In this document: in pieces, positions 21,440-34,278 of the stretch
Position numbering within the stretch: position 1 is the first letter of the stretch
Layout of the letters: each line of letters begins with the position of its first letter
NCBI GenBank assembly: GCA_017471985.1
Contig: JAFURE010000003.1
Location: 1 to 49,569 of the forward strand
Reading direction: 5' to 3'
DNA: 49,569 nt
Origin: Akkermansia sp.
Lineage (GTDB): Bacteria > Verrucomicrobiota > Verrucomicrobiia > Verrucomicrobiales > Akkermansiaceae
Made by a program: the position numbers and the translations under genes
Notes under the pieces: model-generated
Database searches by the model: none
What the model saw: only the letters and a program-made list of their open reading frames with translations
Told to the model about the DNA's origin: nothing

Positions 21440-21468
21440 TTGCAGTAGGATTTAAAATGCGCTATCTT
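21440..21468 (+). promoter_or_regulatory. Candidate promoter of the giant protease gene
   Basis: TTGCAG (21440-21445), 17 bases, TATCTT (21463-21468). It lies inside the longest open frame but upstream of the signal-peptide ATG (21538), giving a leader of about 65 bases that includes GGTC-TCA-GACC. Confidence 0.4.
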
Positions 21469-21537
21469 ACGAGTGGTCTCAGACCGGACGACCTATCGTT
21501 TTTCGAATCAGAAAATATCGACCATACGTTATTCGCA

Positions 21538-24500
21538 ATGAAACTGCATCTTCCCCTTTCCCTCCGCAAGTGCCTGCTGATCGTTTGTGCCGCCACCGCT
21601 GCCACTACCGCCTGGGGCGGTGGTATGCATGAGGACGTAGACAAGCGCACCTACTCCGACTTCGGTCAGAACAAAGGGCGATTCCGCGTCACCGGCATCA
21701 GCTCCATGCTGCAGGCCATCCGCGATAAAGACGGCGGCATTGCCATGCCCAAGGCAAACGGCGAGGTCACCTGGGTACTCCCGGAAGAACAGGGAATGAT
21801 TAACTTCGCCGGGAGTCTGGATTACGGAGCCACCGGAACGCCATGTCACGGTGCCGCCGCAGCCTTCGGCGCCAACTATCTGGTTACCGTAGCGCACAAT
21901 CCCGGATTCAGTGCGGCTTTCGGCACAACTCAGGTGGGAAGCGATCATACCATCAAATACAGCACCGTTCAAATCACGGAAAAAGACATGGTGAGCGCGG
22001 CTGATTGGGGTCTGTACCGCCAGAATAAGATTTTTACCGATGTTGTCGGAGCCTATAATTACAGCGGTGTATCTTCCGAACAGCAGGACAGCAATGAAAA
22101 CGGCATTCCCGACATCAAAGAACAGCTCGAGGGTGAACTGATGTACCGCGCATTTGCCGGTAATGTTGCCGTCTGGAAAAAAGATGGGAAGCTGGTCGAT
22201 GCCGGCTCGCCCTATACTACCATTCTGGGCGGCATCTCCACCATACGTGCCATTGCCATCACAACAGAGGGACTCATCTTCGGCGACTGGAATTTGAAGC
22301 CCGAATCCTCCTGGGTCAATGAATCAGCACCGCTGCCAACCAACGGTCAGGGTGGTGACTCCGGTTCCCCGGTCTACGTTTACAACAAGGAAGCCGGACG
22401 CTATGAATACATTTTCTCCCTGCGAGCCGGCAATTTTACAACTTACTCTGTAGCTCACGGCTCCATCGACTTCGCTAATGAAATTCTGGACACGCACAGC
22501 GTCGAGGTGAACATGAGCACCACGAGCCCGGCACAGCTGGGAACTGTCTCCAACGGCCGAGGGGCCATTACGGTGGGCGATAACAAGTACGAGCACCTGG
22601 CGGTAGATTCCGGCAGCCACACGTGGAAAGATCTCTCAGCCGTAAAAGACAACAATAACTGGTACGCCTACGGGAATCATTACCAGAATGGCATTAGCGG
22701 TCTGGGCAACACCCAGAACCTGATATTCACCGGCAACGGCGGTAAGTATGAAATTCTCCTGAATGACACGGTTGACACCGGTGTAGGCTATCTGGAGTTC
22801 AACAATGGCAACTTCACCATCAAAAACGCAGATGGGGGCGATTTCATGCTCAATTCAGCGGGATACGTGATTAACAAAGGGGCTGAAGTCCACGTGCAGC
22901 TGACCAACCCGGCAAATTACATGCGCGAATGGCGCAAGAACGGTGAGGGTGATTTGTACATTGAGGGCGAGGGAGATAACAACATTCTGCTGGCAGTCGG
23001 CGGCGGCGGCACCACCTACCTGAATCGGCAAAACGGCCACGCCGCCTACAATGTTCTGGCCAGTAGCGGTGCAACGGTAGTTATTTCGGACATCAACCAG
23101 ATTGAGCGCGCCTTCACTTTCGGGCTCAACGGTGGCACGCTGGACATGCACGGCAACTCCATGGATTGGTACACCACCAATACCCATATTGAAGGTGATG
23201 GTTTCAGCATCAATGCCCTGACGGATGATGCCCGCATCGTCAACAGCAGCGACAGCACTACCTTAACCTACAAACAAGCCGGTAACAGCACCTGGAAAGG
23301 CTCACTGAAGGATTCCGCCAAGGGCTCGCTGAGTGTCATCGCAGACATGGGCGCCGACTCCGTATGGACCATGAACAGCATCTGCACCGACCTCAGCAAC
23401 AACGAGGACAGCTCCTTCACCGTCAAGAGCGGCACCGTTGTTCTGGCCGGTACAAACACCGAACACGGTACCGGCTCCGTCCCGTACAGTGATGCCATCT
23501 TCTTCTCAGAGGACGACTGGCACTACGCCGATGCCAAGATGAACGTCACGGTGGAAGACGGAGCAACCTTCCGCCTGGGAACACACGCCCGCGTTAAGGG
23601 GGATATCACCGTCAAGACCGGCGGTACCTATGTGATGAATGAAGGCGTGCACCATCAGCTGGAATACATCGAGGGCGGCATTGTCAAGGAAAACACTCAG
23701 CAATGGGCTGAATACTACGGTCACCGGGGTAACACTACGCTGGCAGGCGGTGCGCTCAAGGTCGAGTTTGCCGACAAGACAACAGCAACTCACACCTACG
23801 ACGGCAACATCACCGGAGAGGGCACCGTCACCGTGAATGCAGCTAACAGCATGCTCTACCTGACAGGCAACAACACCTTCACCGGCTCCCGCAGCGTTCT
23901 CGGCGGCACGCTGATGGTGGAAGATGCTGCGGCTGCCGGCAGTCAGGAATGGTACGTTGGTGAAAAGGCCGCACTGGCTGCCCACAATTCTGACGGAAAT
24001 ACGGCGCTGAACTATATTACCGGCGACTCCAACGGCGTGCTGGCACTCACGCAAAACCAGCTCACGCAAGTTGATACCTCCGAGCACAAGAACCTCATCA
24101 TCGGTGCGCTCGCAGGGCAAACCATCGAATACGGCGTACAAGACACCGGTGAGCAGTTGACGGCAGTCGACAATGCCTGGCGACTGGGCGGCGGCGGCGG
24201 TGAACTGGTGGTGAACTATCACCTCACCGGTAACAACACGCTCATTCTCGGCAACAACCATACCAAGGGTACGGTCATCCTTACCAATACACGCAACGAC
24301 TTCACCGGAGGTGTTGACTTTGCCGGTGGCGGCGTGACACTCGAGTATACGAGTGAGGATGTCATCAAGAACGTGGTCCTGAGTCTGAGTTACGGTAACC
24401 GAGTGGCCATGGGCAACCTGCTTTCCAATGTCAAAACGGAATCGGAAGGTATTCTGCTGCAAAATCAGTCGACACAGGACATTGACCTCAGTCGCCATCG

Positions 24501-27500
24501 CAATCTCTCGCTCGGCACAAAGAGCGACCTGAGCTATTCCGGCAACATAACCATTTCTGACAATCAGGCCTACAGACTTTCTGCGGCCGACGGCACATTT
24601 ACCATCCACTCCGAAATCGGTGGTGCACACGACCTTATTGTGGATGCTCAGGGGTACACGGGGGGAACAGTTCACCTCTCCAATCTCAGCAATCTCACCG
24701 GAAATATCACCGTTATGGGCAATGATGGAATGCATAGCTCCATTGACAGTGGGGCGGTCTCTCTCAAAGTTACTCAGAACAACGCACTGGACTCAGTTTC
24801 CTGTATTACCCTGAAAGACGGCGGCACATTGAACATTGATTCAACAACCCAGAAAATCAATAAACTGGTGTTGGAAGAAGGCGGCTCTCTCATCGGCAAC
24901 TACAGAGAAAACAATACGGACCCCATCGCCAGCGAGATACACATGACCATCGATTCCATGGCTGACCTCAAGGGGCAGCTTAAAGTGGAAGTCATTCACA
25001 AATACGGTGATAATGTATTAGAACTGAACAACGGCACCAACAATACCAGTAACCTGCAGTACAGAAATCTGTATGTGGAGGAAGGTGATGTGAAACTGAC
25101 CCAGCAGTACTCCAGCGTAGGCTTCCTCCATATCAGAGGCAACACGCTTGACATGAACGGCAAAAACCTCACGCTGGGAACAGTTTATGCCGAAGACGGC
25201 GCATATATTGATGCCTCTGATTCCGGGTCCGGCTTCGGGGGCACCAGTGCTCTTCGTGCCACATCGGGCACGGTTACGCTGGACAACGGTGGGAACGACG
25301 TTACGCTTGCCGGTGTTGTAAGCGCGACCAACGGCGCCACGCTGAAACTCATCGGCTCGGGCAAATGGAATCTGACGGGGTCCGCCTACAACTCCTCCAC
25401 CGGAACGCTGCGTATCGAGGGTGCCACTCAACTGGATTTCACCTACGGCAACAAGGGGACGTATACCTATTATTCCGCTTTTAACATTATGAGCGGTATA
25501 CTGGATTTGGATACAGATATTCAAACGCTCCGGGCGGCGTCTGACAAAGTCACCCAACACATGACATTTGAGACAATTAAGCTCAATGGTCAGAATCTGA
25601 CGTTAAGAGAAAAGAGCATGAGTGCCACCTGGATTATCAGCAATCTGGACTCCGGTGCCACGTCCGGTTCTACGCTCACCTGGGAAGCAAGCCAGACCAA
25701 TACGGCTACCTATGCCGACCGAGAAAGCTCAGATGTCACCCTGTACCCAACCGTCACCAACGCTTCGCGCCTGATTCTGAATGGCGACAACCGGTTTAAC
25801 GGTAGCGTGGTAGCCAAACGTACAGCCAACGGCAGCGGGTTCTGTACTTTTGTGGAACTGGCGCATGACAACGCGCTCAAGAATGCCACTCTGGACATGC
25901 AGAGCATCTCCGGTTCCACTATAGCACTGGCAGTCAATACGAACAATGCTAAAATCATGGGACTTACAGGTGATGAAAACTCCTATGCTTACAGCGGTGC
26001 TTCCTCTGACATCAAACTTGACAGCGCCCGTGAGGGTGACGGCAAAAACACGCTGACTATCACCGGCAGCGGGAACTACAACTACAAGGGTGCCGTCAAC
26101 GGGCTGAACCTCGCCATGGACGGCACAGGGACCCAGATTTTCAGCGGCAGCGATATCAAAGCTCAGAATATCTCAGCCCTGCAAGGCAACATGGAGTTCA
26201 CCCATGCTCCCACGGTGGCGGGCACCATCAGCATCGCTCAGGGTGCCACACTGAAACTGAGTGATCGCTACAGCCTGAACGCAGGAGGAACACTGGCATT
26301 GATTGCCGGGAACGGCACGCAGGGCACGCTGACCGGCACCCTGGTACTCAACGGCGGCACGCTGGAATTTGACAGCACGGTGCTGAATGCCACCACCTCG
26401 CTGTTGAACGCCACCACTGAATACGGAGCTGACTTCAGGAGTCAGGCCATCAGCTTCAGCAACCACCAATCGCTTGAGCATGGCGTTACCTATGCCCTGC
26501 TCTCCGGCGACTGGAGCGAGCATGATGCCCACCTGGCCGACAATATGCCGGATTACCTTGCCGGCAGCACCTTCGCAGGCGACAGTAACGGACTGAAAGT
26601 CACCATACGCTTTGCCGACGGGTTCGCAGAATGGCAGGATGATTATTCCGTGTTCAGCGCAGGGGAAACCGTACTGTTCCGCGACCACGAGCCATCCAAA
26701 ACCCTTCAGTTCACCAGCGCAACCAATGCGGAAGGCCTGCGCTTCACGAACAACGAAACCTACACCTTCTCCGGCAGCGATGTCACGCTCAGCGGCGACC
26801 TGAATGTAGAAAGCGGCAAGTTGGTGCTCAACAACAAGCTGACAGCAGCAGACTACACCGCTGCCAAGGGTGAAGTGGAGATTGCCGCCTCCGGCACGCT
26901 GGTACTGACCGATACCCAGGAGACCACCGCCACCGTCAACAACATCTCCGGCACCGGTACCGTGCAGATTAAGCTCGACACCACCAATAACACCTATAAC
27001 AACAAGCTCGCCATTGATGAGGATTTTGAGGGCACAACCCATGTAACGGCCGGCAACCTCACGCTCACGGGCAGCAGCTTCGGCAGCACCCTGAAACTGG
27101 CGAATGGCGTCAATGCCCAGATAACGGCAAAAACGACTATTGACGGTAATCTGGAGCTGGAAGGTAAAACAGAAGTACACCAGAACAGCGGCAATAACCT
27201 TACCGTCAACGGAGATGTGACCGGCAGCAACGGCACCTGGGAACGCAGAGGGGGCGGCACGCTGGATATCAACGGCTCTGTCTCGCTGGCAGGCTTCGAC
27301 ACAGGCTCTGATAACACCACCTCCAACTTCAACGGCACCACCTCCATTGCCACCGTCACGCTTGACCAGAGCAACATTACCGCCAACTTCAACGGCAACG
27401 CTACCGTGGAAACACTCAATCCGAGCGGGAACAACGTGACTCTGGGTGGCAAGGGCAACCTCAGCGTCCGCAACTTCAACCTGGCCGGCGGAAAGAGCGT

Positions 27501-29265
27501 CACCATCGACGGGCTCAGCATTGCCGAAAGCTCTGCACAGACGCGCAGCTGGAGCGGAAATACTACCACCACAATAAACCTGAAGAATGGTGCTGTGTTG
27601 GATTCCCGTGATTCCACCTATATAGCAACCGGAGCCATCAACGTAGGTGGTTCTGCTGCGGATGGTACGTTATACGTGAACAGCCTGCGTCTTTCACCCT
27701 CTGACACTCAGGGCTACAAGGGTTCTCTCTCCGTTTCCTCCGGTGCTCACCTGATTATTGCCGGAGAAAAGGGTGGGACTTGGGAATCAGACTTTGTCCT
27801 GGCTGTCGGCGGCGAAGTTTCACAGTTAACCGCCGGTTCCAATCAGGTCAATGTGAGCGGAACGCTGACCTCCAACGCAGCCATGACTCTCTTCTACAAG
27901 TCAGCCGATGTCACCATTCAGAACGGTGGACGGATGAATCTGCTCAGCGGGCTGGAATTGAAAGGGAGTGCCTATAATGAATGGGTCACCGGAGGCGTAA
28001 AAGCCAATCTTCAGGTCCAGGAAGGCGGGCAACTGTATGCCGCCGGCGGTACGCAGCGCAGCGTGCTTGTCGTCTCCCTCGCATCCGGTACCACTCTGGG
28101 TGCCATCGGCTCGGCTGATTCCACCGTCACCTTCAAGAACAACATGACTGTGGGAACAGCGGGCAAGGACGGCACCTTCACCGTGGATACCGCCGCCACC
28201 ACGGCAGATGACAACCTCCTGCTGACCCGCAGCGAAACCAAGGGCGTGACCGTGGATATGACCGGCAGCCTGAACCTGCAGGGCAACACTGCGGTGGAAG
28301 TCATCGGCAGCGGCGCCCTCCGGCACAAGAGCGCGTTCAATAACGCCACGGCCATTCGTGTACGGGAGGGTGCTACCCTGGCAGTAGATTCCGGAGCTGA
28401 GCTCACCGCCGCAACAGAACTGCGCAAGAGCAGCATCTCTCTGAATTCAGCCAAAGTCAGCGGCAGCGGCATTACCGTGACAGATGCGGCAACCATCCGC
28501 GCCACGGGCGACAACAGCACCATTTCCGCCGCAACCAACCTGACCAATGAATCCACACTGACCTACGATGTGGCAGAGGGAGCCACCCTGCAATCCACCG
28601 GTGAAATCACGGCCGCAACACGCAGCGATCTGGTCAAAACAGGCACCGGCTCCCTGAAGCTCAATAATGGAGCAAACAGCTTCGACAACATTCTTGCAAA
28701 CGCAGGCGAGCTGAGTGTTCACGGTGCTACGGCCTATGATTTGGATAACCTGCAGGTAGAAACCGCCGTTTCGCTGGGCTTCTACGCCGGAGAGGTCGGA
28801 AATGAGGAAACGGAAGCAGCAGTCCGAGTCAGCGGCACGGCAGACTTTGGCAGCGGGGCACTGTTGAATGCCCACCTGACTCTGGCTACCGGGTCTGTCC
28901 TGAACGTAGCAGAAGGCGGGCTTTCCATGGGAAGCACCCTGACCCTGCAGGAAGGTGTATTGCTGGGGGATTCCACCCTGGCACGCGTGCTGAGTCTCAG
29001 CGTGGGTGAATCCACAACCCTCTTCAGCGGCGTAGACGGCCTGACGCTGGGCAACACGGTTTACAGCACCATCTCAACAGAAGATGCCATTCAGGCGAGC
29101 CCATTCTTCAGTAATCTGAACGACAACTACGTGCTCACCTACACCGGAACAGACAACGGCAGCCTGAACATCACCATGCTCTCCATCCCTGAGCCGACAT
29201 CATCCATGCTTGGCTTAGCGGGGCTGGTTGCTCTCACTCTCCGCCGCCGCAGAAAAAAATCATAA
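21538..29265 (+). CDS. S6-like serine protease / autotransporter beta-helix / PEP-CTERM protein
   Basis: A 2575-residue exported protein. The signal peptide is residues 1-27 (KCLLIVCAATAATTAW). Residues about 90-310 are a trypsin-fold protease of the IgA-protease (S6) type: H120 (VTVAHNP), D156 (AADWGLYR) and S275 (GGDSGSPVYVY), with triad spacing close to EspP/Hbp. An acidic DSNENGIPDIKEQ loop (184-196), like a Ca-binding repeat, is inserted. Residues about 350-2540 are Gly/Asn/Thr-rich strands with autotransporter-associated repeats (LTGNNTFTG ... GGTLMVED). The end is not a beta-barrel but a PEP-CTERM-type tail: PEP (2551-2553), a hydrophobic run, RRRRKKS. The protease is therefore probably anchored through the PEP-CTERM/exosortase-type route, not self-translocated. 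The open frame extends to 21457, but I start at the signal peptide. Confidence 0.88.
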   Translation: MKLHLPLSLRKCLLIVCAATAATTAWGGGMHEDVDKRTYSDFGQNKGRFRVTGISSMLQAIRDKDGGIAMPKANGEVTWVLPEEQGMINFAGSLDYGATGTPCHGAAAAFGANYLVTVAHNPGFSAAFGTTQVGSDHTIKYSTVQITEKDMVSAADWGLYRQNKIFTDVVGAYNYSGVSSEQQDSNENGIPDIKEQLEGELMYRAFAGNVAVWKKDGKLVDAGSPYTTILGGISTIRAIAITTEGLIFGDWNLKPESSWVNESAPLPTNGQGGDSGSPVYVYNKEAGRYEYIFSLRAGNFTTYSVAHGSIDFANEILDTHSVEVNMSTTSPAQLGTVSNGRGAITVGDNKYEHLAVDSGSHTWKDLSAVKDNNNWYAYGNHYQNGISGLGNTQNLIFTGNGGKYEILLNDTVDTGVGYLEFNNGNFTIKNADGGDFMLNSAGYVINKGAEVHVQLTNPANYMREWRKNGEGDLYIEGEGDNNILLAVGGGGTTYLNRQNGHAAYNVLASSGATVVISDINQIERAFTFGLNGGTLDMHGNSMDWYTTNTHIEGDGFSINALTDDARIVNSSDSTTLTYKQAGNSTWKGSLKDSAKGSLSVIADMGADSVWTMNSICTDLSNNEDSSFTVKSGTVVLAGTNTEHGTGSVPYSDAIFFSEDDWHYADAKMNVTVEDGATFRLGTHARVKGDITVKTGGTYVMNEGVHHQLEYIEGGIVKENTQQWAEYYGHRGNTTLAGGALKVEFADKTTATHTYDGNITGEGTVTVNAANSMLYLTGNNTFTGSRSVLGGTLMVEDAAAAGSQEWYVGEKAALAAHNSDGNTALNYITGDSNGVLALTQNQLTQVDTSEHKNLIIGALAGQTIEYGVQDTGEQLTAVDNAWRLGGGGGELVVNYHLTGNNTLILGNNHTKGTVILTNTRNDFTGGVDFAGGGVTLEYTSEDVIKNVVLSLSYGNRVAMGNLLSNVKTESEGILLQNQSTQDIDLSRHRNLSLGTKSDLSYSGNITISDNQAYRLSAADGTFTIHSEIGGAHDLIVDAQGYTGGTVHLSNLSNLTGNITVMGNDGMHSSIDSGAVSLKVTQNNALDSVSCITLKDGGTLNIDSTTQKINKLVLEEGGSLIGNYRENNTDPIASEIHMTIDSMADLKGQLKVEVIHKYGDNVLELNNGTNNTSNLQYRNLYVEEGDVKLTQQYSSVGFLHIRGNTLDMNGKNLTLGTVYAEDGAYIDASDSGSGFGGTSALRATSGTVTLDNGGNDVTLAGVVSATNGATLKLIGSGKWNLTGSAYNSSTGTLRIEGATQLDFTYGNKGTYTYYSAFNIMSGILDLDTDIQTLRAASDKVTQHMTFETIKLNGQNLTLREKSMSATWIISNLDSGATSGSTLTWEASQTNTATYADRESSDVTLYPTVTNASRLILNGDNRFNGSVVAKRTANGSGFCTFVELAHDNALKNATLDMQSISGSTIALAVNTNNAKIMGLTGDENSYAYSGASSDIKLDSAREGDGKNTLTITGSGNYNYKGAVNGLNLAMDGTGTQIFSGSDIKAQNISALQGNMEFTHAPTVAGTISIAQGATLKLSDRYSLNAGGTLALIAGNGTQGTLTGTLVLNGGTLEFDSTVLNATTSLLNATTEYGADFRSQAISFSNHQSLEHGVTYALLSGDWSEHDAHLADNMPDYLAGSTFAGDSNGLKVTIRFADGFAEWQDDYSVFSAGETVLFRDHEPSKTLQFTSATNAEGLRFTNNETYTFSGSDVTLSGDLNVESGKLVLNNKLTAADYTAAKGEVEIAASGTLVLTDTQETTATVNNISGTGTVQIKLDTTNNTYNNKLAIDEDFEGTTHVTAGNLTLTGSSFGSTLKLANGVNAQITAKTTIDGNLELEGKTEVHQNSGNNLTVNGDVTGSNGTWERRGGGTLDINGSVSLAGFDTGSDNTTSNFNGTTSIATVTLDQSNITANFNGNATVETLNPSGNNVTLGGKGNLSVRNFNLAGGKSVTIDGLSIAESSAQTRSWSGNTTTTINLKNGAVLDSRDSTYIATGAINVGGSAADGTLYVNSLRLSPSDTQGYKGSLSVSSGAHLIIAGEKGGTWESDFVLAVGGEVSQLTAGSNQVNVSGTLTSNAAMTLFYKSADVTIQNGGRMNLLSGLELKGSAYNEWVTGGVKANLQVQEGGQLYAAGGTQRSVLVVSLASGTTLGAIGSADSTVTFKNNMTVGTAGKDGTFTVDTAATTADDNLLLTRSETKGVTVDMTGSLNLQGNTAVEVIGSGALRHKSAFNNATAIRVREGATLAVDSGAELTAATELRKSSISLNSAKVSGSGITVTDAATIRATGDNSTISAATNLTNESTLTYDVAEGATLQSTGEITAATRSDLVKTGTGSLKLNNGANSFDNILANAGELSVHGATAYDLDNLQVETAVSLGFYAGEVGNEETEAAVRVSGTADFGSGALLNAHLTLATGSVLNVAEGGLSMGSTLTLQEGVLLGDSTLARVLSLSVGESTTLFSGVDGLTLGNTVYSTISTEDAIQASPFFSNLNDNYVLTYTGTDNGSLNITMLSIPEPTSSMLGLAGLVALTLRRRRKKS

Positions 29266-31964: not shown

Positions 31965-33464
31965 TTACTGTCGGGTAGTTGCACCACGAGTAGGATTGAA
32001 ATCCGCCGTGGCAAGGATATTCGGTATGCGAGGTAGAACGGTGGAATCCACCATCTCGCGAATGGGTGCCAGCGCGTTCTCCATCACGACAAGCGGGTCG
32101 AGTTTCACCGGCTTAGCCTCGCGGAAGTCAGAGACATTGCCATCGAACACAGCCTTCAACAAGCGCGGGGAGAAACCGCTGACAAGCGCACAGTTGTCGA
32201 GTGCGGATGCCGCCACACCGGTATTGGTGGCATCGAGATTCCAGTACACAATGGCAGGGAACTCGTAGCCGGCATACTTGTAGCGCAAGCGCAACTCATC
32301 CATGAGGGTGATGTTGCAATACGCACCGGAGTCGAACTGCATATCCGATAAGAGCAAGACACAGCGGGGCATGGCCTCTGCCCGGCACTTGGCGCTCTTG
32401 GCTCGGGCAAGCAACAACTCGAATACCGACACAATGTTGGTGTTCTCGACAATGCTGTAGCTATCAAGGTGCTGCATACGCTGAAGCGTTGTTGCGTTCT
32501 CCGGAAGCTCGATAAACTGAGCCCGCGAGCTGAAGGTAACGATGCGGTTGCGGAAAGGACCGCTGAGACGCTCGGCGCAGTAAAGAGCCAACGGATATGC
32601 CACATCACGCGGTATTACCGAGCGACCCCAAGTCATGGAACCCGACGTATCGAGCACCGGCAAGAAGGACGCACCCTCGGGCATCATGTTCGGCAAGCTA
32701 CGCCACTGGGCATCGATAATGGACGAAAGCATATCCTCCGACATTGAGCGACATTGCCCCTTAAACCAGGCGGCGAATACCTCGTGGGGATACAACGCAC
32801 CGGCGTTGAGCTTCTTCTGCGTAATCACCTGCTTCAAGCGCTCGCCATCCTCGCGGGCAAAGAGACGCTTGTAACGGTTGAATGCCTGAGAGGGCAACTT
32901 ATCATACTGCACGTCCTCCATACGGCGGGCGCAGAGCAACTGCTCCACAGTGGTGGATGCCCTTGCCACACGCTGACGGAACTCGCGGTTGGTTAAACCG
33001 GTGCGGGCACGTACGTCGGCATAAAGCTTGCTGCGACGGGGCAACCACTTGCAGGCAAGGTGATTGTCGTTCATGACGCCATCGGCAAAGATTGCCACAA
33101 CATCATCGCGGAGCTCGGGGAACTCATCTGCCACCCATACGTAATCCTTGTAGCTGCCGAGCTCAGCAAACAAATTCAAGTGAGCACGCAATGCCTGCGG
33201 AGCAAGCTGGTGTGCAGCCTTTAACAACACACGGGACACAGCACGCTCACCCGCACCTAAGCGCACGGAACGAGCCCAGAGCGCAATACAGAATGCCGTG
33301 GTAGGGTCACTCTTCCAGGCCTCCAGAAACATAGCCTGAAGCACATCCGGAGAGCTGAGCGCCATGTTACGAGCCGAACCAACCTCGGCGAAGAGGTCCA
33401 CGCAAGCCTTGCCGGTCGTGCGGAGCTGAGTGGCGCCGTTCTCAGTATATGTAAAAGTATTCAT
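31965..33464 (-). CDS. Ro60-like RNA-binding protein (TROVE/DUF2828 plus vWA)
   Basis: A 499-residue cytosolic protein. Residues 1-255 are an all-helical repeat domain with Ro60/DUF2828 features: YTENGATQLRTTGKACVDLFAEVGSARN, AWKSDPTTAFCIALWARSVRLGAGERAVSRVLL. Residues 265-450 are a von Willebrand A fold with an intact MIDAS: DTSGSM (272-277), NTN (341-343) and SDMQFD (373-378). Ro60 proteins are ring-shaped and bind misfolded RNA and Y RNAs; bacterial Rsr uses its Y RNA to tether PNPase or other RNA enzymes. The gene follows about 780 bases of transcribed-looking tRNA-mimic repeats, which strongly supports the assignment. No Shine-Dalgarno sequence is visible before the ATG. Confidence 0.83.
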   Translation of the reverse strand: MNTFTYTENGATQLRTTGKACVDLFAEVGSARNMALSSPDVLQAMFLEAWKSDPTTAFCIALWARSVRLGAGERAVSRVLLKAAHQLAPQALRAHLNLFAELGSYKDYVWVADEFPELRDDVVAIFADGVMNDNHLACKWLPRRSKLYADVRARTGLTNREFRQRVARASTTVEQLLCARRMEDVQYDKLPSQAFNRYKRLFAREDGERLKQVITQKKLNAGALYPHEVFAAWFKGQCRSMSEDMLSSIIDAQWRSLPNMMPEGASFLPVLDTSGSMTWGRSVIPRDVAYPLALYCAERLSGPFRNRIVTFSSRAQFIELPENATTLQRMQHLDSYSIVENTNIVSVFELLLARAKSAKCRAEAMPRCVLLLSDMQFDSGAYCNITLMDELRLRYKYAGYEFPAIVYWNLDATNTGVAASALDNCALVSGFSPRLLKAVFDGNVSDFREAKPVKLDPLVVMENALAPIREMVDSTVLPRIPNILATADFNPTRGATTRQ

Positions 33465-33502
33465 TTTCTTATTTTTTTGATTATGATAGATTTATAAATT
33501 GT

Positions 33503-33594
33503 ATCACCCGTGAAAGGAGTTGCCGGAACTTCGGGGTGTACTATAGTCGTTTCTGGAATGATATTAAGATTGAATAACATTTGCAGAAAAGTTC
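33503..33594 (-). ncRNA. Y RNA-like unit 4 (no tRNA mimic)
   Basis: It has the conserved 5' element (complement of 33581-33594, GAACTTTTCTGCAA) and 3' hairpin (33503-33540; stem CACCC/GGGTG, loop starting GAAGTTCCGGCAAC). Only 40 bases, AT-rich, lie between them and no T- or D-arm is present. It ends 38 bases before the Ro60-like ATG and may act as the mRNA leader. Confidence 0.6.
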
Positions 33595-33608
33595 AGAACA
33601 TTCTGAGG

Positions 33609-33660
33609 GCGGAATTGGTCAACTTAGTTGCCCTTGGCTACCGCGTTGAGATTCTTCCGC
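33609..33660 (-). ncRNA. Nested hairpin between units 3 and 4
   Basis: On the minus strand, GCGGAA (from 33660) pairs with TTCCGC (to 33609), with CAAC/GTTG nested inside and GGTAGCCAAGGGCAACTAA at the tip. It contains TTGACC, a string also seen in the Ro-binding strand of animal Y RNAs, but the match is short. Confidence 0.45.
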
Positions 33661-33726
33661 TGTATGGAAATTGTATGTTTTCATAATAATGCTTATGATA
33701 ATTGGTTATATTGGGGATAAAGGAGT

Positions 33727-33878
33727 GCACCCGTGAAAGGAGTTGCCGGAACTTCCGGGTGCGTTGATTTCAGGCTCTTCCAACTGAGCTACGGTGACCA
33801 TTAAGTGGCTGTGAGAGGGCCACCGGGCGGAGTCGAACCGCCGACAATGAACATCAGATCAGAGTTGCAGAAAAGTTC
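33727..33878 (-). ncRNA. Y RNA-like unit 3 with permuted tRNA mimic
   Basis: Minus-strand order: GAACTTTTCTGCAA (33878-33865); anticodon-stem half TGATGTTCA; five-base variable loop TTGTC; T-arm GGCGG-TTCGACT-CCGCC (33842-33826); acceptor half CGGTGGC; a 20-base joining loop; acceptor half GTCACCG (33798-33792), a perfect 7-bp stem with one G-T; TA; D-arm GCTC-AGTTGGAA-GAGC; C; TGAAATCA, which pairs with the first half; then the 3' hairpin (33727-33762, stem GCACCC/GGGTGC). Every canonical tRNA landmark is present, but the acceptor end is sealed and the molecule opens at the anticodon. It cannot be an ordinary tRNA; this is the layout of YrlA-type bacterial Y RNAs. Confidence 0.82.
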
Positions 33879-33892
33879 ACGAAAGGGGGAGT

Positions 33893-34029
33893 GTGTGCCC
33901 GTGAAAGGGGTTGCCGGAACTTCAGGCACACGAGTTGGTTAAGCCGCTACCTCGTTAAAGGAATCGCGGCAGCCCGAACCACTTAAGGGTGACGGTAAGG
34001 CCAGTCTGTAGTGATTGCAGGAAAGTTCC
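33893..34029 (-). ncRNA. Y RNA-like unit 2 (hairpin instead of tRNA mimic)
   Basis: The 5' element is GGAACTTTCCTGCAA (34029-34015). The 3' hairpin (33893-33931) has stem GTGTGCC/GGCACAC and the shared loop GAAGTTCCGGCAAC. Between them, an imperfect long hairpin replaces the tRNA mimic: AGTGGTT ... GCCGC, loop, GCGGC-TT-AACCAACT (about 33933-33983). No T-loop or D-loop consensus is present. Confidence 0.65.
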
Positions 34030-34039
34030 ATGAAGGGGA

Positions 34040-34185
34040 GTCAACCGTAAAAGGAGTTGCCGGAACTTCAGGTCGACGAATGCATCAACTGCTCTACCAT
34101 CTGAGCTAAAGTAGTCAAACCACTTCGCGGATTCGAACCGCGGACCAATTGCTTACTCTTGCAGGGTGGGGTTGCAGTAAAGTTC
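34040..34185 (-). ncRNA. Y RNA-like unit 1 with permuted tRNA mimic
   Basis: Minus-strand order: GAACTTTACTGCAA (34185-34172); a spacer; CAAT (34151-34148, anticodon-stem half); variable loop TGGTC; T-arm CGCGG-TTCGAAT-CCGCG (34142-34126); acceptor half AAGTGGT; a three-base loop TTG; acceptor half ACTACTT (34115-34109), seven pairs with one G-T; TA; D-arm GCTC-AGATGGTA-GAGC (34106-34091); A; GTTG pairing with CAAT; then the 3' hairpin (34040-34077, stem GTCGACC/GGTTGAC). The mimic is closed at the acceptor end, so it has no CCA terminus and cannot be charged. Confidence 0.82.
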
Positions 34186-34250
34186 AGCAGGAAAGCTGCC
34201 GGAGCACCTCGGGAGATAGGAGCCGGGAGCGGGTAGTTCCTGTGGGGAGA

Positions 34251-34278
34251 AGATTAGCACATTTCCAACCCTTGTCAA
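34251..34278 (-). promoter_or_regulatory. Promoter of the Y RNA-like array and Ro60-like gene
   Basis: On the minus strand, TTGACA (34273-34278), 16 bases, TAATCT (34251-34256) with an extended -10 TG. Transcription would start near 34244, about 60 bases before unit 1. I see no intrinsic terminator between it and the Ro60-like ATG, so one primary transcript may carry all four units plus the mRNA. Confidence 0.7.

Follow-up and report, generated by a model that had tools for sequence, protein, structure and literature searches.

A four-unit array of putative RNA elements lies directly upstream of a gene for a DUF2828/DUF7788 protein in the gut bacterium Akkermansia sp. (assembly GCA_017471985.1, contig JAFURE010000003.1, positions 1 to 49,569; this whole stretch of 49,569 nucleotides (nt) is called the window here). 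Each unit consists of an insert, the cargo, held by a clamp of two complementary elements. We establish the array and its clamp, the predicted Ro60-like fold of the protein, the association of such units with the protein family, and the enrichment of tRNA-like cargos. It is rather probable, in our judgment, that the gene product belongs to a Ro60-like ribonucleoprotein (RNP), in which the upstream clamp RNAs with their tRNA-mimicking cargos would serve as bait or adaptor for tRNA-handling enzymes. The features of the locus are:

34251-34278, minus strand: promoter-like TTGACA-16-TAATCT ahead of the array, read by eye
34040-34185, minus strand: unit 1, clamp GAACTTT/GAAGTTC, permuted tRNA elbow as cargo, 3' hairpin GTCGACC/GGTTGAC
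34083-34150, minus strand: YrlA-type module of unit 1, with T arm, 7-bp acceptor-like stem AAGTGGT/ACTACTT, and D arm
33893-34028, minus strand: unit 2, clamp, non-tRNA cargo with a GCCGC/GCGGC hairpin, 3' hairpin GTGTGCCT/GGGCACAC
33727-33878, minus strand: unit 3, clamp, permuted tRNA elbow as cargo, 3' hairpin GCACCCG/CGGGTGC
33767-33850, minus strand: YrlA-type module of unit 3, with 8-bp acceptor-like stem CGGTGGCC/GGTCACCG
33505-33594, minus strand: unit 4, clamp, short 48-nt cargo, 3' hairpin CACCC/GGGTG
31965-33464, minus strand: gene of the DUF2828+DUF7788 protein (499 amino acids, ATG at 33464), predicted Ro60-like ring and vWA domain

The clamp array and the protein of the window

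The array spans positions 33505-34185 of the minus strand, immediately ahead of the gene at 31965-33464. A previous account made by a model from the letters alone (the sequence-only reading) had claimed four copies of a bipartite element upstream of the gene, and this was borne out, with four starts and ends located between 34185 and 33519 (minus strand). The 5' element GAACTTTnCTGCAA starts at minus-strand positions 34185, 34028, 33878, and 33594, and the 3' element GAAGTTCCGGCAAC follows each copy 48-109 nt downstream, ending at 34056, 33910, 33742, and 33519. In all four units the two elements are complementary (GAACTTT/GAAGTTC, six Watson-Crick pairs and one U-G pair), and through this pairing a clamp of 7 base pairs (bp) closes the insert of each unit. 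The 3' hairpin encloses GAAGTTC, its 5' arm lying 0-1 nt before and its 3' arm 15-16 nt after this strand. Since the hairpin thereby encloses the 3' strand of the clamp, the order is that of an H-type pseudoknot, which the two likely form together. The 5' element and the 3' hairpin had both been recognized earlier; the pairing of the 5' with the 3' element and the enclosure of GAAGTTC had been missed.

Of 13 units from five related loci (the window's four units included), 12 have a 3' hairpin of 5 bp or more, with nine different stems; swapping the hairpin arms between the 13 units gave a mean of 6.2 and a maximum of 10. The 3' clamp strand is nearly constant within this clade (GAAGTTC in 12 of the 13 units, TAAGTTC in one), and the support for the clamp there is therefore repeated complementarity and not covariation. 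The promoter-like sequence at 34251-34278, described as good in the sequence-only reading, fell below the consensus threshold of the promoter tool; by eye, TTGACA together with a comparable second box is seen again in the related loci L002 and L008-L010. Between units 3 and 4, the approximately 130 nt at 33595-33726 hold no unit, and by eye a stretch there might be a decayed cargo.

The protein matched both DUF2828 and DUF7788 above the Pfam cut-offs (82.6 and 119.4 bits versus 29 and 27.1, respectively), whereas the Pfam profile of TROVE (PF05731) gave no match to it at E ≤ 0.001. A TROVE profile search of the window's own genome likewise returned no match, with one control genome matching. 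When the DUF2828 family profile was compared with the chain sequences of the PDB, the best match was a TROVE protein at E 0.2, restricted to the vWA region. The absent PF05731 match and this E value rule out a plain TROVE-type Rsr, and by detectable sequence the Ro60-like ring of the DUF2828 family appears unrelated to TROVE. Nevertheless, the protein is predicted to fold like Ro60, that is, as a helical-repeat ring plus a vWA domain. Residues D272, S274, S276, T342, and D374 are invariant among 63 aligned sequences, and we take this DxSxS..T..D set to be the metal ion-dependent adhesion site (MIDAS). The intact MIDAS and helical-repeat domain of the sequence-only reading thus agree with the alignment and with the predicted fold, and its term Ro60-like can be kept for the fold but not for the family. 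The locus shares with Ro60/Rsr the predicted ring, the vWA domain with MIDAS, and a gene beside Y-like RNAs; it differs in the family to which the protein belongs. In 11 of 36 aligned proteins, those nearest to that of the window, a C-terminal extension ends in approximately NPxRGxSxR; the others, including L006-L010, are without it. This extension may go together with the GAACUUU clamp.

Rfam at gathering thresholds gave no match in the window, and ARAGORN found no true tRNA gene there. At a permissive threshold, unit 1 matched the YrlA model (RF02553, gathering threshold 69 bits) with 35.9 bits (E 5.3e-6, model positions 23-89 of 114) and unit 3 with 30.5 bits (E 1.9e-4, positions 23-88 of 114). 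As in YrlA, the order in both units is T arm, acceptor-like stem, and D arm, which corresponds to a circularly permuted tRNA with the clamp at the site of the anticodon arm. The ends of YrlA (model positions 1-22 and 90-114, approximately CGGCGAAUGC and CUUGUCGCCG) are unmatched in units 1 and 3, where another clamp replaces them, and units 2 and 4 are without the elbow. The earlier designation of the units as Y RNA-like is therefore retained for units 1 and 3, at scores below gathering, and dropped for units 2 and 4. In an alignment of 16 elbows (units 1 and 3 and 14 others, which include some near-duplicates), three pairs of the T stem were changed in both partners in 10, 8, and 7 cases, and an acceptor-like stem of at least 4 bp was formed in 12 of 16 (mean 2.4 and maximum 7 after swapping).

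Full YrlA copies, several of them below gathering, stand in rows of three to five beside TROVE genes in four relatives (G364, G361, G097, and G103), and no clamp sites were found in the two TROVE/YrlA loci tested. Arrays as such are therefore not new, and it is this clamp and the DUF2828/DUF7788 family that go together. The contrast on which the sequence-only reading had relied, namely that one or two Y RNAs are usual at Ro60 loci, is consequently unsound; what is new is that another protein family has a clamp of its own and anticodon-arm cargos, in many bacteria and phages. A further YrlA candidate in the window's own genome (C60:6735) was rejected, as it spans two tandem tRNAs. Because tandem tRNA neighbors can mimic the T-D permutation, phage units were called by their clamp.

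Clamp units in related bacteria and phages

Arrays of this type accompany relatives of the gene in many gut bacteria and phages. Related loci were drawn from public genomes (80 of 565 relatives kept) and from viral contigs (80 of 591 kept), and the counts refer to these; 5 of the 80 viral loci, with less than 150 nt upstream, were dropped from one count. The close relatives L002-L005 (56-70% identity) carry one to five units each with the window's clamp. Arrays with another clamp, AAGRCNC..CAGCAA...GNGYCTT, and again with elbows, were found in L007-L010 (33-35% identity, same genus), most units of which contain CAGCAA. This hexamer after the 5' clamp strand is absent from the window's units, and the window's clade has CTGCAA in its stead, preceded by 1 nt.

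Of 251 CAGCAA sites upstream of bacterial DUF2828 genes, 170 are matched perfectly by a 7-bp partner at a distance of 20-220 nt downstream, compared with a mean of 22.9 and a maximum of 37 when stems were swapped between loci. In the viral loci, a perfect partner was present for 61 of 107 sites (swapped mean 2.7, maximum 7). Partnered sites followed by G contained 43 different 7-mers among 169 in bacteria and 34 among 59 in viruses, and since so many different 7-mers are still paired, complementarity has been kept despite sequence change. A CAGCAA-type pattern searched genome-wide was too loose (39 of 142 genomes, with the reversed control also matching) and was not used.

The units cluster in the 500 nt before the gene, with 117 on the gene's strand versus none on the opposite strand in bacterial loci and 41 versus none in viral loci. 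Of 179 bacterial forward units, 159 are located on the strand of the gene and no more than 1 kb upstream of it. This would suit a cis-acting leader, in which the array would be an autoregulatory 5' region with protein-bound clamps and without free small RNAs. We regard this explanation as unlikely: a second group of 31 viral units lies 1-2 kb after the gene start, the phages radambza and LilDestine have units after the gene, in radambza among tRNA genes, and neither tRNA bodies nor anticodon loops would be needed in a leader.

At least one CAGCAA unit was present in 67 of 80 bacterial loci and in 31 of the 74 viral loci with at least 300 nt upstream (6 of 80 dropped), and the highest number of units was eight (L044). 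Among eight named phage loci opened, five contained units, namely the Felixounavirus radambza (MN850639, L211; four), LilDestine (MH779511; three), S13 (one), CP39 (two), and LMTA-57 (three); a fourth descriptor match of LilDestine, inside the gene, was set aside as chance. A phage member of the DUF2828 family was matched by 682 of 50,697 phage records.

Within the genus, strong matches to the window protein were found in 10 of 76 genomes, and profile searches of 387 genomes of the phylum recovered DUF2828 in three and TROVE in six; a DUF7788 search of eight genomes gave no match even in its controls and shows no absence. The exact GAACTTTnCTGCAA-type 5' pattern occurs in 19 of 142 related genomes. 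Among the matches listed, clustered copies stand only beside a DUF2828 gene (four in the window, four in G072, two in G035), while G141 has two on separate contigs and each remaining positive genome has one. Five lone GAACTTTTCTGCAA sites away from a DUF2828 gene were opened, and a partner was found in L227 and none in L221, L222, L224, and L228. By eye, L227 (G064:C82, 1355-1640) has two units, one with a cargo resembling that of unit 2 and the other closely resembling unit 3 of the window. No DUF2828 gene follows them, G064 is not among the genomes matching the window protein, and the reading frame after the units resembles what is presumably a Fic-type protein (motif HPFTDGNGR).

The patchy gene, the units of L227 without a gene, and the unit copies of L002, which look tandemly duplicated, would be expected of functionless remnants of tRNA genes or of a mobile repeat. 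This explanation is already disfavored, and we consider it most improbable: the complementarity of the clamp is kept under sequence change, as are the 3' hairpin, the T stem, and the acceptor stem, and the positions of the units track one gene family.

Cargo classes, RtcB, and phage transcripts

The cargos were classified in 250 filtered descriptor units (245 non-identical) from 100 of the 160 loci. Among inserts of 25-60 nt, 52 of 129 contain a hairpin of at least 5 bp with a 7-nt loop (shuffle mean 16.1, maximum 24); 9-nt loops are modestly raised (30 versus 14.6, maximum 25), and the remaining sizes are within the shuffle maximum. Hairpins with 7-nt loops are also the most raised in longer inserts (73 of 116 versus 31.4). 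Loops of the anticodon type (pyrimidine, U, three bases, purine, not G) on 4 bp were found in 42 of the 129 short inserts and once in their reverse complement (shuffle mean 4.8, maximum 12). Furthermore, 21 of 55 7-nt loops of short inserts are identical to real anticodon loops, of which 103 were taken from tRNAs in these loci, the corresponding numbers being 0 of 52 for the reverse strand and 8 of 1070 for the coding region. In 40 mimics, the first anticodon position is never A. ARAGORN detected 11 tRNAs inside clamps, and strict patterns recognized a tRNA part in 76 of the 250 units.

Some of the cargos without a tRNA part form similarity groups of their own. Rfam at gathering returned only tRNA in 10 Firmicute and Spirochaete loci, and looser cut-offs gave weak YrlA (L008), leader, tmRNA-fragment, group I intron, and plastid untranslated region matches, none of them at non-tRNA cargos. 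Phage cargos of approximately 130-230 nt (in L131, L141, L143, L145, L148, L153, L159, L161, L176, L182, and L183) include two similarity groups of seven and six members, and in the five loci scanned no Rfam match fell on them. A recurrent non-tRNA cargo motif, CTGAATAGGCTAAGG...CCTGAACCTTATCA, was seen by eye upstream of DUF2828 in L044 and L100.

A gene for the RNA ligase RtcB lies within a few kilobases in 38 of the 80 bacterial loci, mostly adjoining the gene or the array; one of the 38 matches, in L077, is a fragment of 27 residues at the end of a contig. RtcB was confirmed by Pfam in two bacterial loci and in phage LMTA-57, whereas a search with one Firmicute query found it in none of the 80 viral loci. 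The combination of a Ro60-like gene, Y-like RNAs, and RtcB is shared with Salmonella, in which an operon unites rsr, yrlBA, and rtcBA and is described as responding to broken tRNAs (PMC7790460). Its authors consider that YrlA, through its tRNA-like part, might compete for an anticodon nuclease (same source). The window differs from that operon in its protein family and its clamp and in having no adjacent RtcB gene.

Chen et al. (2014) reportedly treated bacterial and mycobacteriophage Y RNAs, which may already include some of the mycobacteriophage elbow units. LilDestine gp55, a mycobacteriophage 'Ro-like RNA binding protein', is a DUF2828/DUF7788 protein, and like Listeria phage CKA15_055 it belongs to a DUF2828 locus with adjacent clamp units. 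Both had already been linked with Ro60-type proteins, by the annotators' name Ro-like or by an HHpred comparison with Rsr. Very many RNA-seq reads of CKA15 come from three non-coding regions that lie less than 2 kb upstream of CKA15_055, and Y RNAs are one explanation offered by its authors, who note the HHpred match of CKA15_055 to Rsr (PMC12282133). The same source reports CKA15_055 in virions with 20 peptides and cautions that proteins of this kind are perhaps not truly particle-associated. The CKA15 region matches the annotated LMTA-57 locus of DUF2828 with 96.8% identity. Its record (OR088597) has three clamp units at 25290-25552, in the gap before the gene.

An Rfam match to ROOL RNA in LMTA-57 (L215, 1422-1973) reached 88.5 bits (gathering 99.1), approximately 0.6 kb upstream of the clamp array and about at the place of the most abundant RNA of CKA15. 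ROOL had no match in CKA15, and that RNA is therefore left unnamed here.

The word DUF2828 is absent from the text of PMC12282133. The portions seen of the open-licence PMC literature (including PMC7790460, PMC7824862, PMC12363180, PMC11208441, PMC7765460, and PMC9569102) contained no link between DUF2828 and Y RNAs, and those on proteins of the LilDestine gp55 and CKA15_055 type did not describe the common clamp and the cargo classes. Among the open-licence papers listed, those that name DUF2828 are plant studies. Plants are not known to have Ro60.

Candidate functions and their meaning

The cargos of the relatives (hairpins like anticodon stem-loops, tRNA-like bodies, and elbows) and the frequent RtcB nearby lead us to propose a role in tRNA damage. 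One transcript from the promoter at 34278 would cover the array and be processed into separate Y-like RNAs, the clamp of each of which would be bound by the DUF2828 protein. In the least certain step, the RNAs would display their tRNA parts and thereby occupy or recruit tRNA nucleases and tRNA-repair enzymes.

Several results weigh against this proposal, in which expression, RNA binding, and function at the window locus are predictions. No tRNA part is recognizable in units 2 and 4, and the minimum-free-energy folds were weakly better than shuffles (z = -1.06, -2.40, -0.96, and -1.36 for units 1-4, unit 3 being folded without the first four bases of its clamp), with the clamp formed by unit 1 only. 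RtcB is not beside the gene, the genome's own copies being on contigs C57 and C60, not C63. By descriptor, no CAGCAA unit was found in 13 of 80 bacterial loci, which include loci of the window's clade with its CTGCAA, and in 43 of 74 viral loci; the named phages VH1_2019, phiM12, and Alsa_1 (three of eight) were without units. By strict patterns, 174 of the 250 cargos contain no recognizable tRNA part, and in inserts above 60 nt most loop sizes, not 7-nt loops alone, exceed the shuffles. The stems of the mimics are no nearer to tRNAs with the same anticodon (8.30 versus 8.15 of 14; 20 of 37, after dropping 3 of 40 hairpins without such a tRNA), and column-shuffled mimic loops often match real loops (mean 19.7, maximum 28, versus 26 of 41 observed), so that mimicry of one given tRNA is not shown. 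Finally, one of the three abundant CKA15 regions, at 26,236-26,727, lies outside the clamp units, and the overlap of the abundant RNAs with these units is unproven.

The main rival is a pure tether as in Deinococcus, in which each RNA would connect the Ro60-like ring with PNPase or another ribonuclease. The system would then degrade structured RNA and not deal with damaged tRNA, and the tRNA-like cargo would be no more than a docking handle. The predicted fold and the elbow module agree with it, and the Rsr-Y RNA-PNPase complex of Deinococcus radiodurans is the bacterial case described in PMC7790460. Yet one tether should suffice, whereas up to eight units with different cargos are present (L044); many cargos are shaped like anticodon arms, and RtcB is a recurrent neighbor. 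We therefore hold the tether to be possible but doubtful, and keep the bait or adaptor reading.

An extension of the latter, which we put forward tentatively, is that DUF2828 arrays might be modular decoy libraries. A second Ro60-like ring would hold interchangeable RNAs by one clamp, and each RNA would present a different face of tRNA, be it a selected anticodon loop, the elbow, or an entire tRNA body. The arrays would absorb nucleases that cut tRNA or guide RtcB in repair. In bacteria they would counter toxins and in phages tRNA-cutting defenses, with the contents of the arrays changing with the enemies.

Elsewhere in the window, a 2602-amino-acid reading frame at 21457-29265 (plus strand) has the end sequence PEPTSSMLGLAGLVALTLRRRRKKS, which we take to be PEP-CTERM-like.

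The roles of bacterial Ro60 proteins and Y RNAs are largely open, and as of 2020 they had been studied only in Deinococcus, according to PMC7790460. If our reading is true, a Felixounavirus of Escherichia coli K-12 and phages of Mycobacterium smegmatis would provide easy laboratory models, and the clamp units would be a specific candidate for some of the abundant RNAs of Listeria phage CKA15 that are unexplained so far. It would further mean that a second, widespread family pairs a Ro60-like ring with arrays of tRNA-mimicking RNAs, which would link Y RNAs with the damage and repair of tRNA and point to a role for two domains of unknown function.

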